Shown piece after piece: positions 49,930 to 54,535 of a DNA stretch of 64,000 nucleotides. Numbering within the stretch: the first letter of the stretch is position 1; the number at the start of each line of letters is the position of its first letter. Source of the stretch: Salegentibacter salegens (GTDB lineage: Bacteria; Bacteroidota; Bacteroidia; Flavobacteriales; Flavobacteriaceae); the NCBI RefSeq assembly GCF_900142975.1, contig NZ_LT670848.1:3162001-3226000 (forward strand), given 5' to 3'. A program made the position numbers and the translations under genes. The notes under the pieces were generated by a model. The model had not been told where the DNA came from, ran no database searches, and saw only the letters and a program-made list of their open reading frames with translations.

Positions 49930-51150
49930 AACCCCTTACAAACATAGCATAAAAAATTTGTGTGCATGGTTGGTTTTCACTAATTTCATGCTTTACAAAA
50001 ACCATCTCCTATGAGCCAGTTAAGTTTTTCCGATATAGAATTGGGACGCAGTAGAAAGCCCAGCAGGGTATCCTCCAAGTTAAACAAGATCAATAATTTG
50101 GTGGAATGGGACAAAGTCTTCAATCTGGTGCAGGCAGTGGACAACACCAATAAAGTTATCGGTGGAGCGCCGCACCGCGATCTTTCCATTAAGGTCAAAA
50201 TGCTTTTTCTTCAGCACCTGTATAACCTGAGCGACCCGGAACTGGAGGATCAGGTCAACGACCGCTTGAGTTTTCAAAAATTTGCAGGGATCAACTACAC
50301 TACCACGGTGCCAGATTTCACGACCATATGGCGGTTCAAAGAAGCCTTGGTACGGGAAGGCTTGATGGATGGGTTGTTTGCTTTGATCTTGGCCAGTCTT
50401 GAATCAAAAGGTTTGTTGCTGAAAAAAGGAACGAGTGTAGATGCCACCATCCTTCAGTCCACCACCAAGCCGTTGAGCAAGGAGCGGCGGGAAGAACTGG
50501 AAAAACACCCGAGTGCGCAAATAGATACCGATGCCCAATCCACGGCAAAGCGGGGGAAGAAATATTTTGGTTATAAAGGTCATATTGGAACCGATGTGGG
50601 CAGTGAGCTGATAAGGAAAAGGACATTCACTTCGGCACGTCCTCATGATTCCCAGCTAAAAGATGAACTCCTTAGCGGCGATGAGCAGATGATTTTTGGC
50701 GATAGCGCCTATGGCACTATTGCCGACAAGCGAAAGGCCAGGAAAGAGGGTGTTTATTACGGGATGCTGGACAAAGGGACACGAAAGCGGAAACTCTCCG
50801 CGACGCAAAAGAAAAACAACAAGAAGAAATCAAAGATAAGATGCAAGGTTGAACACCCTTTCGCCTATTTGAAGGAAAAGTTGAACTACAAAAGAACGGT
50901 TGCTAAAACAATGGCAAGGAACGAATTAAGGTTTGACTTCAACTGCATCCTGTACAATATTTTTCGGGCCAGTTATCTGCTCTCGAAAGCCTAAAACGTG
51001 GGAACGTGCGCAGTGTTGGAACAAAAAGGGAATAAAATAACGAAAATGATGAAAAAAATTGGCCAAAAGTCAAGGATTTAGGCAAAATAGTCCAAAAAAA
51101 TTCTCGGAAAAGAGAAATAAAAGAAAAACCATTACTTATTCAAAGCTTCC
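49917..51150 (+). mobile_element. IS5-family (IS5 group) insertion sequence, complete
   Basis: The element is about 1234 bases. Its ends form an imperfect inverted repeat: GAATCCTTTGCATAA at 49917-49931 against GGAAGCTTTGAATAA (reverse of 51136-51150), 11 of 15 matching. Flanking bases are ATATA on both sides; restoring the GH43 frame needs removal of one 4- or 5-base copy, which fits the 4-base duplications of IS5-group elements. It encodes one intact transposase with very few unexplained bases: about 80 before the gene and 155 after. It is inserted into, and oriented opposite to, the GH43 gene. Confidence 0.9.
50011..50994 (+). CDS. IS5-family transposase
   Basis: A 327-residue DDE transposase, the same length as the IS5 protein. 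The N-terminal domain has APHRDLSIKVKMLFLQHLYNLSDPELEDQV, the first Asp is in GTSVDATILQS, the second in MIFGDSAYGTIADK, and the Glu in KVEHPFAYLKEKLNYKRTVAKT (Y-R-E signature region). A basic linker (RKRKLSATQKKNNKKKSK) precedes it. The gene is intact, so the element may still move. GC content is visibly higher than in the flanking genes, as expected for a mobile gene from elsewhere. Confidence 0.95.
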   Translation: MSQLSFSDIELGRSRKPSRVSSKLNKINNLVEWDKVFNLVQAVDNTNKVIGGAPHRDLSIKVKMLFLQHLYNLSDPELEDQVNDRLSFQKFAGINYTTTVPDFTTIWRFKEALVREGLMDGLFALILASLESKGLLLKKGTSVDATILQSTTKPLSKERREELEKHPSAQIDTDAQSTAKRGKKYFGYKGHIGTDVGSELIRKRTFTSARPHDSQLKDELLSGDEQMIFGDSAYGTIADKRKARKEGVYYGMLDKGTRKRKLSATQKKNNKKKSKIRCKVEHPFAYLKEKLNYKRTVAKTMARNELRFDFNCILYNIFRASYLLSKA

Positions 51151-51354
51151 ATATATTTTATCTTCAAAAACGTGGGCTGAAGGATCTGCCGTATAATGAT
51201 CGGTAATTAATGGTTCTGAATGATATCTAATAGTGTCTTGTTGGGCTATAGAATCTTCAGCTACTTCATCTTTTTCCTCCTGTTTGTTGTTATCCTTACA
51301 ACCAAAGGCAATAAGGGCCGGTAATAAAATTGGAAGGCTTTGTTTTAATTTCAT
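51136..51354 (-). pseudogene. GH43 gene, 5' part, cut off by IS insertion
   Basis: Start at 51354: a lipoprotein signal with lipobox ALIAFGC (Cys19), an acidic linker KQEEKDEVAEDS, and the first GH43 strand LITDHYTADPSAHVFEDKIY with the catalytic base Asp. After KIY the frame runs into the IS end and adds only GSFE before a stop. Joining KIY to IYPSHDWD at 49912 restores the typical GH43 blade 1. The promoter region with a LacI-type palindrome is intact, so a short useless lipoprotein may still be made. Confidence 0.9.
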
Positions 51355-51484
51355 TTTAAAATTGGTTTTAATGTTTCGGGTAAAAATATAAAAAAATCAA
51401 TCGTATTCGTAAGTTAAATGTGCATAATATGCCCTGTAATATAGTTTTTTAAACAAATATTCACCCATTGAAAAACCTCAATTA

Positions 51485-51500
51485 ACACAAACGGTTGTGT
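51485..51500. promoter_or_regulatory. Candidate LacI-family operator before the split GH43 gene
   Basis: ACACAAACGGTTGTGT is the best palindrome of the set: 14 of 14 defined positions of ACACAAnCGnTTGTGT. It lies about 130 bases before the start of the split GH43 gene, in the otherwise empty gap 51355-51652. Its retention shows that this gene belonged to the same xylan/uronate regulon. Confidence 0.65.
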
Positions 51501-51652
51501 AAATAGATTAAAGCATTATCTCTATTCATCATCAAAAAACACTTTTTCTTATGGTGATTTCTTAAAAATTTAGATCTGAAGCTAGGTTGAGAATATTAAG
51601 AACTATCAAAAAATTTTATAATAAAGTAGCTTTAAAAAGATTGGAATATTTC

Positions 51653-52318
51653 TTAAATCAATTTTAGATCTTTCATAATCCCAATGAGGTGTGGGTTTGT
51701 GTTTGCCTCAAATTCCTCGCGTAATTCCTTTAAACGCTTCTCTATAGCGCTTCTACTGCTGGGCTTAATGTTTTTCTTCTTCAACTCTCTTTCAATTTCG
51801 TCCTGAGTGTAACCATTGGAGAGATATTTCACAATATTTATTTCAAATTCGTTAAGACTAAGCAGGTTTTTTTGTTTTAGAGCTTTTTCAATAGAAGGTG
51901 AATTGTATTGTTGGTTTTCACTTACAATTTTAATCGCTTCTTTTAAGTCTTTAAGACCGTTGCGGTCTTTACAAACATAGGCATCAATATTCCCAGACGC
52001 CCATAAATCGCGAACGGTTTGCGGATGGTCTTCTATGGAATTTACGATAACCTTTAGGTTTGGGTCTTCCTTTTTTAAGATTGAAATAAGTTCTTGACCT
52101 GAAGTTATTTTTTCTTTCCTAAAATCTTGTTTAAAAGAGAGGTCGCAAATAAGTAAATCAAAAGGTTGGTTATCCTTTATTGCTTTCTTTGTTCTTAACC
52201 AGGCCTGATCGCAGTATTGAGAATGTGTAACTTCTGCAATTCGGAGATCTTTTAAAACAATGGAAACAGCCTGGTTGATACTGTCCATATCTTCTGCAAC
52301 AAGGACCTTTTTAAACAT
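51653..52318 (-). CDS. Response regulator (receiver plus C-terminal HTH)
   Basis: A 221-residue protein. The receiver domain (1-125) has the acidic pair in VLVAEDMDS, the phosphorylation Asp in LLICDLSF (Asp59) and Lys in AYVCKDRNG. The C-terminal part (about 150-215), LSLNEFEINIVKYLSNGYTQDEI, resembles a LuxR/GerE helix-turn-helix but is more degenerate, ending with a helical SRSAIEKRLKELREEFEANT. It starts 8 bases after the end of the broken histidine kinase gene, its natural partner. Target genes are unknown. With the kinase broken, it may be controlled by another kinase. Confidence 0.88.
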   Translation of the reverse strand: MFKKVLVAEDMDSINQAVSIVLKDLRIAEVTHSQYCDQAWLRTKKAIKDNQPFDLLICDLSFKQDFRKEKITSGQELISILKKEDPNLKVIVNSIEDHPQTVRDLWASGNIDAYVCKDRNGLKDLKEAIKIVSENQQYNSPSIEKALKQKNLLSLNEFEINIVKYLSNGYTQDEIERELKKKNIKPSSRSAIEKRLKELREEFEANTNPHLIGIMKDLKLI

Positions 52319-52326
52319 GATAATTT

Positions 52327-52991
52327 TTATAACGGGATACGGATTATAATTTTTAATCCTTTTCCCTTTTCAGTTTCAAAAATAAGTTTTCCATTTATAG
52401 AAAAAATACGGTTTTCCACATTTTACAACCCATTTCCGTTTTTGATAACTGCCATTGAAGAGCCTCGGTAGCCGATTCCTGGCTGCCGGTATAATCTTGC
52501 ATTCGGCTTTGAGCGATAGCCATTTCGAGAGTTCTGCGGGCAGCTTTTGTGCTATCTCCTAATTGAAGATATCGTTTCCGGGCTTCAAAAGCATTTTTAA
52601 AAACCGCTTCCTGATTATCTAAATACCGATTAATAACCGCTTTTCTGTAAAACGACAGGGCAATGCTGCCCGTGTCTTTTTGGAATTTTGCTACCCGTTG
52701 GAGGCTATCGGCAAAAAGCAAGGCGCTGTCGTATTCTTTTAAACGGTTGTGATAGTAGATTTTGTGATCCAGTAAGAGTGCTAACAAAGTATCGGAGCTT
52801 TGTTGAGCCTGCTCAAGCCCTTTGTTGAAGAAACTTATTTTCTGCGGAATAAAATCAGTTTTTTTGGCTTTTTCATAAAAATAAGAAACCGAATCAACCG
52901 GGTTTTTATTCTCCTGAGTATTCACCTCTTTTTTTTGACAGGCCAGGAATAAAAAAGCCAGGCTAAAAAATAAGCAGTAAAAGTGCTTCAT
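52327..52991 (-). pseudogene. TPR sensor histidine kinase, internally deleted remnant
   Basis: The first 180 or so residues are a lipoprotein-like signal (FLFLAC, Cys18) and TPR-like helices (FFNKGLEQAQQSSDTLLALL, EYDSALLFADSLQRVAKFQK). The open frame ends at KMWKTVFFL. In another frame, overlapping its end, the DNA reads KNGNGL, stop, NVENRIFSINGKLIFETEKG (52400-52330 area) and ends IIIRIPL just before the response regulator: the C-terminal ATP-binding end of a histidine kinase, with a nonsense codon where Lys is expected. So the membrane segment, the His-box and most of the ATPase are gone. Alternatively the 198-residue frame could still be made as a TPR lipoprotein. Confidence 0.75.
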
Positions 52992-53141: not shown

Positions 53142-53174
53142 TTTGTTTAATAGAAAGAAGAAATTGTATATTTG
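53142..53174 (+). promoter_or_regulatory. Bacteroidota-type promoter of the candidate ncRNA
   Basis: TTTG at 53142-53145 and TATATTTG at 53167-53174, 21 bases apart, the same spacing as the susC promoter. Both boxes match the consensus. Transcription is expected to begin near 53180. Confidence 0.75.
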
Positions 53175-53179
53175 CCAGC

Positions 53180-53435
53180 CCTCTTTGAGATCTTCGGGTT
53201 GTTTAGAGGTAGTATTGATTATTAGTGACCGAATTAATTCTTCGGTTTTAGAAATAAAATTTGGGGTTCAGAGCCTTGTGCTAAAAGTTTGTGAATTAAA
53301 CTTTTGCATTAAAATTAAGTTGTGTTGTTGTCCTGTTAATTCAGGACGTGTAGTTAGCCAGTTATATCCTATGTTGTGTGGATTTGGCTAACCAATGAGA
53401 AGCTTTTTTCCGTGTATTCGGAAAGAGGCTTTTTT
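53180..53435 (+). ncRNA. Candidate structured non-coding RNA, about 250 nt
   Basis: A strong promoter and a terminator enclose about 250 bases with no convincing coding frame (one 82-codon frame begins upstream of the expected transcript start and has no recognisable features). Perfect hairpins follow each other: CCTCT/AGAGG (53180-53209), ACCGAA/TTCGGT (53228-53246), AAAAGTTT/AAACTTTT (53283-53305), GTCCTG/CAGGAC (53330-53347) and GTTAGCCA/TGGCTAAC (53353-53392). The terminator stem is GCTTTTTTCCG/CGGAAAGAGGC (53402-53429), then T. The 5' end AGCCCTCTTT could also pair with AAAGAGGCT of the terminator. I cannot assign a family; a 6S-like RNA or an uncharacterised flavobacterial RNA are options. 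It is not tmRNA or RNase P as far as visible. Confidence 0.6.
53402..53435 (+). terminator. Terminator of the candidate ncRNA
   Basis: GCTTTTTTCCG pairs along its whole length, with G-T wobbles, with CGGAAAGAGGC, and six T follow. No protein-coding gene ends shortly before it on this strand, which supports a separate RNA transcript. Confidence 0.85.
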
Positions 53436-53583
53436 GTTTTTAGGAAGTTTGTAATTAATATATAGGCGAAAATATAGAATTCTTCCTGTTCAGATTAACT
53501 ACAATTTTTGCTTAGTCCCCAACAATCATGCTTGATCCCTTTTTTACTATAAAGAATATAGAGGTAATGCATAATGCAAAATT

Positions 53584-53616: not shown

Positions 53617-53623
53617 TTTAAGG

Positions 53624-53696
53624 TGGTGCCTCCAGGAATCGAACCAGGGACACAAGGATTTTCAGTCCTTTGCTCTACCAACTGAGCTAAGGCACC
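53624..53696 (-). tRNA. tRNA-Phe (anticodon GAA)
   Basis: 73 nt on the minus strand. The acceptor stem GGTGCCT pairs with AGGCACC, followed by discriminator A; CCA is not encoded (ACCT follows). The D arm TAGCTCAGTTGGTAGAGCA, the anticodon stem-loop AGGACTGAAAATCCTT with anticodon GAA and the T arm CCTGGTTCGATTCCTGG are all regular. It has its own promoter and terminator, so it is a single-gene transcript. Confidence 0.97.
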
Positions 53697-53803: not shown

Positions 53804-54535
53804 ATGAATTTAATTATTGATGTTGGGAATTCTGCCGTAAAAAGTGCTGTATTTCAGAATGCTAAGATTTTGAGGTCTTACGTGTTTCCTTTTGAAAAAT
53901 TTTTTGAAAAATTTCAGCAAATAAAAAAAGATTATCCTCAAATAGCTTTTTCTATCCTTTCTTCGGTAATAAAAGATACTTCAGAAATAGAAGAAATTCT
54001 TAGAAATGAAACTAAACTCTTTGTTTTAGGAGAAAACACCAGGCTTCCGTTTAAAAATAACTATGCTTCTCCTCAAACTTTAGGGAAAGACCGGTTAGCA
54101 TTAGTGGCCGCCGGAGCAAAAGAATATAGTAATACAAATTTGCTGATTATTGATGCCGGAACCTGTATTACTTTCGATTTTAAAAATGATAAAAATGAAT
54201 ATTTAGGAGGCGCTATTTCCCCTGGGTTGCAGATGCGATTAAAAGCGCTTCATCATTTTACAGCGAAACTACCTTTAATAGAATTAGAAGAAAATATATC
54301 TTTAATTGGCGATTCTACTCAAAAAGGAATGCTCTCGGGTGTATTAAACGGGGTAGCGGCCGAGCTTGATGGAATTATTGATCGCTATAAAGCTGATTAT
54401 AAATATTTAACAATTATTTTAACAGGAGGGGATACGCAAATTTTGTCAAAGCGGGTAAAAAATGGCATATTTGCCAACCCGAATTTTCTTTTAGAGGGAT
54501 TAAACTACATTTTAGAATTTAACAAGACTCAATGA
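53804..54535 (+). CDS. coaX: Type III pantothenate kinase
   Basis: A 243-residue cytoplasmic enzyme that phosphorylates pantothenate, the first step of coenzyme A synthesis. The phosphate loop is MNLIIDVGNSAVKSAVF (Asp6), TLGKDRLALVAAGAKEY has the family GxDR motif, and LIIDAGTCITFDF carries the second conserved Asp; LGGAISPGLQMRLKALHHFTAKLP is the pantothenate-binding block. The stop overlaps the ATG of the following outer membrane protein gene by 4 bases, so it leads a co-translated run of envelope genes. Confidence 0.95.
   Translation: MNLIIDVGNSAVKSAVFQNAKILRSYVFPFEKFFEKFQQIKKDYPQIAFSILSSVIKDTSEIEEILRNETKLFVLGENTRLPFKNNYASPQTLGKDRLALVAAGAKEYSNTNLLIIDAGTCITFDFKNDKNEYLGGAISPGLQMRLKALHHFTAKLPLIELEENISLIGDSTQKGMLSGVLNGVAAELDGIIDRYKADYKYLTIILTGGDTQILSKRVKNGIFANPNFLLEGLNYILEFNKTQ

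Follow-up and report, generated by a model that had tools for sequence, protein, structure and literature searches.

A conserved structured RNA of the Flavobacteriaceae with two motifs complementary to the pnp mRNA leader

A 64,000-nucleotide stretch of Salegentibacter salegens DNA (hereafter the window) carries a gene for a structured RNA that covaries among relatives, is near-universal in the Flavobacteriaceae that we checked and has no match in Rfam 15, in agreement with a preliminary description of the locus as an uncharacterised flavobacterial RNA. Two motifs of this RNA are complementary to two sites in the 5' leader of the mRNA for polynucleotide phosphorylase (pnp, PNPase), and from these sequence relationships we think it likely that the RNA is a trans-acting small RNA (sRNA) of the Flavobacteriaceae that base-pairs with this leader. 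The preliminary description had also called the RNA possibly regulatory, and the complementarity suggests that it may be. The features of the locus, in window coordinates, are as follows.

53142..53174, plus strand: promoter, TTTG (53142-53145), 21 nt, then TATATTTG (53167-53174); read from the sequence
53177..53309, plus strand: 5' part of the RNA, variable in the genus, with an H1-like hairpin at about 53283-53305; from folding and the genus alignment
53319..53328, plus strand: seed GTTGTGTTGT, complement of ACAACACAAC in the pnp leader; exact site found by genome search
53330..53347, plus strand: hairpin H2; 6 of 6 pairs changed on both sides, 97.4% of cells paired
53353..53392, plus strand: hairpin H3 (53353-53360 with 53385-53392; inner 53366-53369 with 53380-53383); from covariation
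53392..53402, plus strand: second motif CCAATGAGAAG, complement of UUUUUCAUUGG in the pnp leader; from family comparison
53397..53434, plus strand: terminator hairpin H4, then a T run; from a terminator scan and the alignment
53622..53696, minus strand: tRNA-Phe, confirmed; not part of the RNA and a neighbour in part of the genus only

Locus, structure and distribution of the RNA

The TTTG/TATATTTG element, which we take to be a promoter of the Bacteroidota type from its resemblance to that consensus and which falls outside the scope of a sigma-70 scan, is present as previously described and is kept, together with the first transcribed bases, in other promoter-driven Salegentibacter copies. 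Folding of 53177-53436 yields -76.8 kcal/mol against a shuffle mean of -53.9 (z -5.4), with 0 of 200 shuffles as low. Of the five serial stem-loops originally noted, those at 53330-53347 and 53353-53392 and the terminator are kept among relatives; the one at about 53283-53305, which occupies the position of hairpin H1 in the tRNA-linked copies discussed below, is kept in position but not in sequence, and 53180-53280 differs among Salegentibacter species. The strong terminator reported earlier was recovered by the terminator scan. A switch between two exclusive folds, proposed from pairing of the 5' end AGCCCTCTTT (53177-53186) with AAAGAGGCT (53422-53430), is possible on paper only and was set aside: the 5' stretch is missing in tRNA-linked copies, and the rival structure is a 16-pair terminator. 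The only open reading frame of at least 60 amino acids over the RNA on the same strand (82 amino acids, TTG start, 53143-53391) has no Pfam match and relatives carry indels of many lengths across its region, on which grounds we rejected a protein-coding reading, as did the preliminary description.

The surroundings are less uniform. Upstream lie a DDE transposase (50011-50994), a response-regulator-like open reading frame just below the Pfam cut-off (51653-52318) and a 198-amino-acid open reading frame (52395-52991) that had been called a broken kinase but has no Pfam match; 50011-52991 is possibly an insertion-damaged two-component locus. The tRNA-Phe was correctly placed as a neighbour here, but only some members of the genus have it at this position; the gene that recurs next to the RNA is tRNA-Asp. 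A type III pantothenate kinase (53804-54535) lies on the far side of tRNA-Phe.

A search of the window against Rfam 15 (4227 families) returned only tRNA at gathering score, with nothing over 53142-53435, and 20 related loci likewise returned only tRNAs. With lax filters the segment gave matches far under gathering score; the PyrG/PyrR-like ones among them were dismissed as terminator resemblance. The RNA is not 6S RNA, whose usual rod shape the preliminary description had contrasted with a chain of local hairpins: the covariance model of 6S-Flavo (RF01685) is unmatched at the segment and the genome's own 6S-Flavo lies elsewhere (G000:C1:1164785-1164905, 98.9 bits; G000 denotes the window's own genome). 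The GcvB model, which we take to be RF00022, had no match in the window or in the 20 related loci. A literature search found no account of the RNA or of a flavobacterial pnp leader, and neither is described in the parts of PMC2864571 and PMC5069720 that were available. A total of 85 new sRNAs have been catalogued in Flavobacterium psychrophilum, according to an excerpt of PMC9723704; their sequences lay outside our comparison, and one of these transcripts may be the RNA described here. Neither the RNA family nor its association with tRNA-Asp or predicted pairing with pnp appears to have been described in the literature searched.

The conserved portion of the RNA is its 3' half (53310-53434), which a DNA search found in 15 of 15 Salegentibacter genomes, G000 included. 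An alignment of 18 copies (A1), in which about 130 nt on the 3' side are conserved and the 5' part varies, was used to build a covariance model, R1, that matches 210 of 397 family genomes and 150 of 237 genera. A second model, R2, was built from 96 R1 matches (alignment A3), after 12 of 108 had been dropped by a stricter E-value, minus-strand and spurious ones among them. Applied to 60 relatives with every row listed, R2 matched 36 of 37 Flavobacteriaceae, 12 of which had supplied sequences to the model and 25 of which had not, and 1 of 23 others, so that R1, at 210 of 397 genomes, undercounts. The single outside match (G039, 36 bits) has neither motif on inspection and is false; the one family genome without the RNA by R2 is G030. 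Wider draws over the order and phylum agree, with borderline matches outside the family in G480, G664, G813 and G769 (35-40 bits), although our prevalence figure is that of the 60-relative search only, as these draws came without a full list of misses. The promoter-driven window copy is the sole R2 match in G000, and in G010 two identical copies near both ends of one contig (C1:2499 and 4693870) may be an assembly overlap. Of 47 IMG/VR stretches with the pattern, only 3 match the covariance model (L130, L150 and L124; 82, 57 and 57 bits), which led us to reject a phage origin; these three are perhaps elements integrated at tRNA-Asp.

The compensatory changes in relatives that had been suggested as a check are abundant. 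In the 96-row alignment, which was fitted to the model's structure and so favours it, 94.5% of cells are paired compared to 71.9% with shuffled partners, and 29 of 34 pairs have changed on both sides, in 593 cells versus 173, with 0 of 500 shuffles reaching either value; sliding the structure along the alignment lowers every measure. Independently of that alignment, 122 units were picked by their motifs; in 120 of them the seed is followed immediately by a hairpin with 5 or more pairs, the stems number 97 distinct ones, and exchanging arms between units leaves only 52% of cells paired. Since these units were found by motifs, they cannot gauge motif conservation without bias. Within the seed, GTTGTGTTG is invariant in 18 of 18 aligned copies. 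The motifs lie outside the hairpins, with GUUGUGUUGU on the 5' side and CRAUGRRAAG ahead of the terminator (as DNA, CRATGRRAAG is the commonest form of the second motif across the family). They can close on each other in the free RNA, where they are predicted to be about half unpaired (0.50 and 0.51; 122 units); part of the second motif also falls within the terminator stem. In genus g219 (G236, G403) the RNA has CCTTTGAGAAGC where others have CCAATGAGAAGC.

Linkage to tRNA-Asp

Outside Salegentibacter, many genera have the RNA downstream of a co-oriented tRNA-Asp(GTC) gene. Using a pattern made up of the tRNA-Asp 3' end, 32-62 nt and GTTGTGTTG, we found the seed GUUGUGUUG just behind tRNA-Asp in 144 of 397 family genomes, while a reversed-pattern control gave 0 in every row; R1 matches 58 of 59 loci hand-picked among the tRNA-Asp-pattern matches listed. 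The hairpin between tRNA and seed is terminator-like in many loci (L072, L083), is not so in L175, L176, L177 and L221, and is missing in L110, which suggests that the RNA may be co-transcribed with tRNA-Asp. Of 36 genomes, 11 were scored as having a tRNA-linked copy, 23 as having one without a tRNA (12 of them Salegentibacter) and 2 as having one at a contig edge. G023 and G007 each have a free-standing copy plus a tRNA-linked one, and G023 was scored on its second copy, the first being tRNA-linked. In six genera the TTTG of the promoter ends 4-6 nt 5' of the seed, which predicts a transcript starting at the seed or close to it in these cases.

Possible traces of mobile elements were seen at several tRNA-Asp loci. 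In G000, tRNA-Asp (C1:2203656-2203730; L093) is separated by about 2 Mb from its displaced 3' end (246325-246346; L094), which is accompanied by a decayed copy of the RNA, and the promoter-driven copy is intact; the sequence after this tRNA-Asp reads like the start of an integrase. In L057 and L096-L105 (G001, G236, G403, G428, G277 and G301), the tRNA-Asp 3' end, H1 and the RNA are repeated, in whole or in part, with spacings between 1.7 and about 39 kb, a pattern that islands bringing the RNA with them on entry into tRNA-Asp might leave. There is at least one additional copy, near position 2512 of L096, that has no tRNA end and shows changes in H1 and H2.

Complementarity to the pnp leader

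In G000, ACAACACAAC occurs at three sites. One is the antisense strand of the RNA gene; the others, both on the sense strand, are in the leader of pnp and immediately 5' of the prs start codon. With only two exact complements elsewhere in this genome, the seed does not behave as an antisense sequence for many targets, a reading that we rejected; a reversed-seed control gave 4 matches but shares the 9-mer CAACACAAC and is not an independent comparison. Across the family, the pnp leader consists, with small changes, of UUUUUCAUUGGUC, a CA-rich loop with CAACACAAC, and then GACCAUUG. Its first block complements the RNA motif CCAAUGAGAAG and its loop complements the seed, in an order that fits one antiparallel complex. 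The CAACACAAC of the loop is predicted to be single-stranded, with a mean of 0.91; none of the 26 leaders scored, a set that excludes G013 and G016, falls below 0.7. Four loci with the pnp leader (L275, L289, L292, L302) were searched against Rfam, and the only family returned was the S15-Flavobacteria leader (RF03161) of the neighbouring gene. It lies near pnp in 4 of 4, placing two leader RNAs close together; in L275 some 0.5 kb separates it from the pnp leader downstream.

A match to the seed alone would be weak evidence, since CA-rich leaders may be general translation enhancers. Allowing at most one mismatch in each, both leader motifs are present in 30 of 34 readable family leaders as compared to 0 of 21 outside the family. 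The exceptions are G030, the genome without the RNA by R2; G013, which has two inserted bases (CAACACACAAC); and G024 and G016, in which RNA and leader have both changed. G024 would pair RNA CAAGUUGUGUG with leader CACACAACUUG, and RNA CUUUUUGAGAAGC with leader GUUUCUCACAAAG with one mismatch; in G016, GUGUUGUUU would pair with AAGCAACAC, and CCAGUGGA with UCCACAGG, again with one mismatch. The remaining sequence searched, 3.0 million strand-bases of which much overlaps, held 25 exact occurrences of the two motifs together, all of them antisense to an RNA gene. Allowing one mismatch per motif added 27 places that are not plain antisense, 12 inside RNA genes and 15 in viral contigs that had themselves been selected for the complementary pattern; one further relaxed match, in locus L299, lies outside the leader.

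In 33 of 33 genomes, the RNA pairs with the leader of its own genome at a lower predicted energy than with any of 15 shuffled leaders or of the 6 leaders tried among the 21 from outside the family, a set of genomes in which 14 pairs come from one genus and from which G008, G017 and G034 were omitted, as these have the RNA but no readable pnp leader. The leader of G024 gives -25.8 with its own RNA and -12.6 to -20.2 with seven other RNAs. For G016 the own pair is not favoured: its RNA reaches -22.2 with its own leader and -24.5 with the G000 leader, and on the G016 leader the RNAs of G001 and G020 score slightly better (-23.7 and -22.8). Because the seed hardly varies, only a few lineages speak for covariation with the leader (G024 and G016, and more weakly G036 and G018). 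Unconstrained cofolding placed both helices together in the two pairs tried, G000 and G015, the latter with a minimal RNA; of 30 shuffled leaders, one or more gave a better interaction than the G000 pair (-16.2; shuffle minimum -17.3), whereas none did so for G015 (-14.6; minimum -13.3). As a candidate trans-acting antisense sRNA, the RNA thus shows conserved complementarity to an mRNA that co-varies with it, the co-variation lying mainly in G024.

Several other explanations of these motifs need to be weighed against pairing with pnp as a target. The complementarity would serve equally well in the opposite direction, with the pnp leader as the regulator, its loop acting as a sponge for the RNA, or PNPase, recruited by way of its own leader, degrading it, and with other mRNAs such as prs as the real targets. 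CAACACAAC, or a variant differing by one or two bases, is kept near the prs start codon in 15 Salegentibacter genomes and G021, and in G000 the prs leader (C1:2853109; L243) has two CAACACAAC blocks, one of them directly 5' of the start codon. However, the site is absent from the other 14 of the 30 prs leaders read, where the pnp site persists, and the second motif is matched by the pnp leader and not by prs, so we rejected prs as a general target and consider this reversed arrangement unlikely. It is more improbable still that both motifs are binding sites for some common protein or element of the ribosome, the RNA acting through protein binding and its match to pnp being incidental to a CA-rich enhancer. 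Both motifs are nearly fixed in sequence, like protein sites, and CA-rich leaders can be enhancers according to the accessible text of PMC3879156. Yet two separate motifs match in the right order, RNA and leader have changed together in G024, and the A/G-variable positions of CRAUGRRAAG face U in the leader, as pairing predicts.

We give least credence to the idea that the RNA is simply a structured 3' trailer of tRNA-Asp with a role in maturation or termination, or an attachment-site repeat of integrative islands, and that the window copy is a stray, which strikes us as very improbable. The linkage in 144 family genomes, and copies that sit behind only a tRNA 3' end kilobases from the full one, are what such an origin would produce. 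Against it stand the 23 of 36 genomes with no tRNA in front, the six with a promoter ending just ahead of the seed, and G000, in which the displaced tRNA-derived copy has decayed but the promoter-driven copy is intact.

Proposed regulation and comparison with known systems

If the RNA does act on pnp, as we favour, it would open its GUUG/CRAU closing helix and bind both leader sites, UUUUUCAUUGG and the CA-rich loop with CAACACAAC, displacing the leader's own CAUUGGUC/GACCAUUG hairpin and covering the loop. By analogy with GcvB, this could mask a translation-enhancing ACA-rich element or create a duplex for RNase III, in either case leading to less PNPase; that regulation is negative is a guess from this analogy. 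In the many genomes where the RNA lies behind tRNA-Asp, its supply would be tied to tRNA synthesis, while the window copy would be supplied from its own promoter. A more speculative extension, which we offer tentatively, is a family-wide feedback in which RNA supplied with tRNA-Asp sets PNPase according to tRNA output and PNPase removes the RNA or the duplex, with integrative islands that enter tRNA-Asp bringing a copy of the RNA, just as they restore the tRNA end, because the host needs it.

Should the proposal be correct, an sRNA missing from the catalogues, with the mRNA of the core RNA-decay enzyme PNPase as its conserved partner, is present in nearly all members of a large bacterial family. 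The Bacteroidota would gain a strongly conserved sRNA-mRNA pair that is testable by one compensatory-mutation experiment, and a GcvB-like seed would be known independently from a different phylum. The association of a tRNA gene with an sRNA gene, and the repeats that contain both, would also allow a test of why elements at tRNA genes retain sequence past the tRNA end.

An RNA derived from the 3' side of a tRNA transcript has a reported parallel in leuZ of E. coli, where the 3' external transcribed spacer is said to act as an sRNA sponge; the flavobacterial RNA differs in having its own terminator, a conserved fold, tRNA-free copies in several genera and a match to an mRNA leader. With 6S-Flavo it shares a flavobacterial distribution and a similar length, but 6S-Flavo has its own locus elsewhere and its model finds no match here. 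The Rfp sRNAs of F. psychrophilum are likewise structured flavobacterial sRNAs, found by transcriptomics. The part of PMC9723704 available to us describes Rfp18 as conserved in the genus, with a third stem-loop as pairing region, proteases and an adhesin as predicted targets, and lowered mRNA of two metalloproteases upon deletion; compared by description rather than by sequence, it differs from our RNA in pairing region and predicted targets. For pnp itself, the corresponding section of PMC5371410 reports post-transcriptional control in E. coli at the structure of the 5' leader through RNase III cleavage, in contrast to the separate RNA proposed here to act in trans in the Flavobacteriaceae.

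The closest functional likeness is to the enteric sRNA GcvB. In the portions of PMC3879156 and PMC7213987 at hand, the GU-rich region R1 of GcvB pairs with CA-rich translation-enhancing repeats (PMC3879156), the target consensus is CACAaCAY (PMC7213987), and in gltI such an element is located 45 nt 5' of the start codon (PMC3879156, PMC7213987). The flavobacterial RNA has the same kind of GU-rich, unstructured and highly conserved seed, complementary to CA-rich elements of an mRNA leader. It differs in belonging to another phylum, in its second pairing motif, in a predicted target that is pnp rather than amino-acid transporters, and in its linkage to tRNA-Asp in many genomes. On this comparison the RNA resembles GcvB in its seed and, judged by the Rfam searches, is not a member of the GcvB family.
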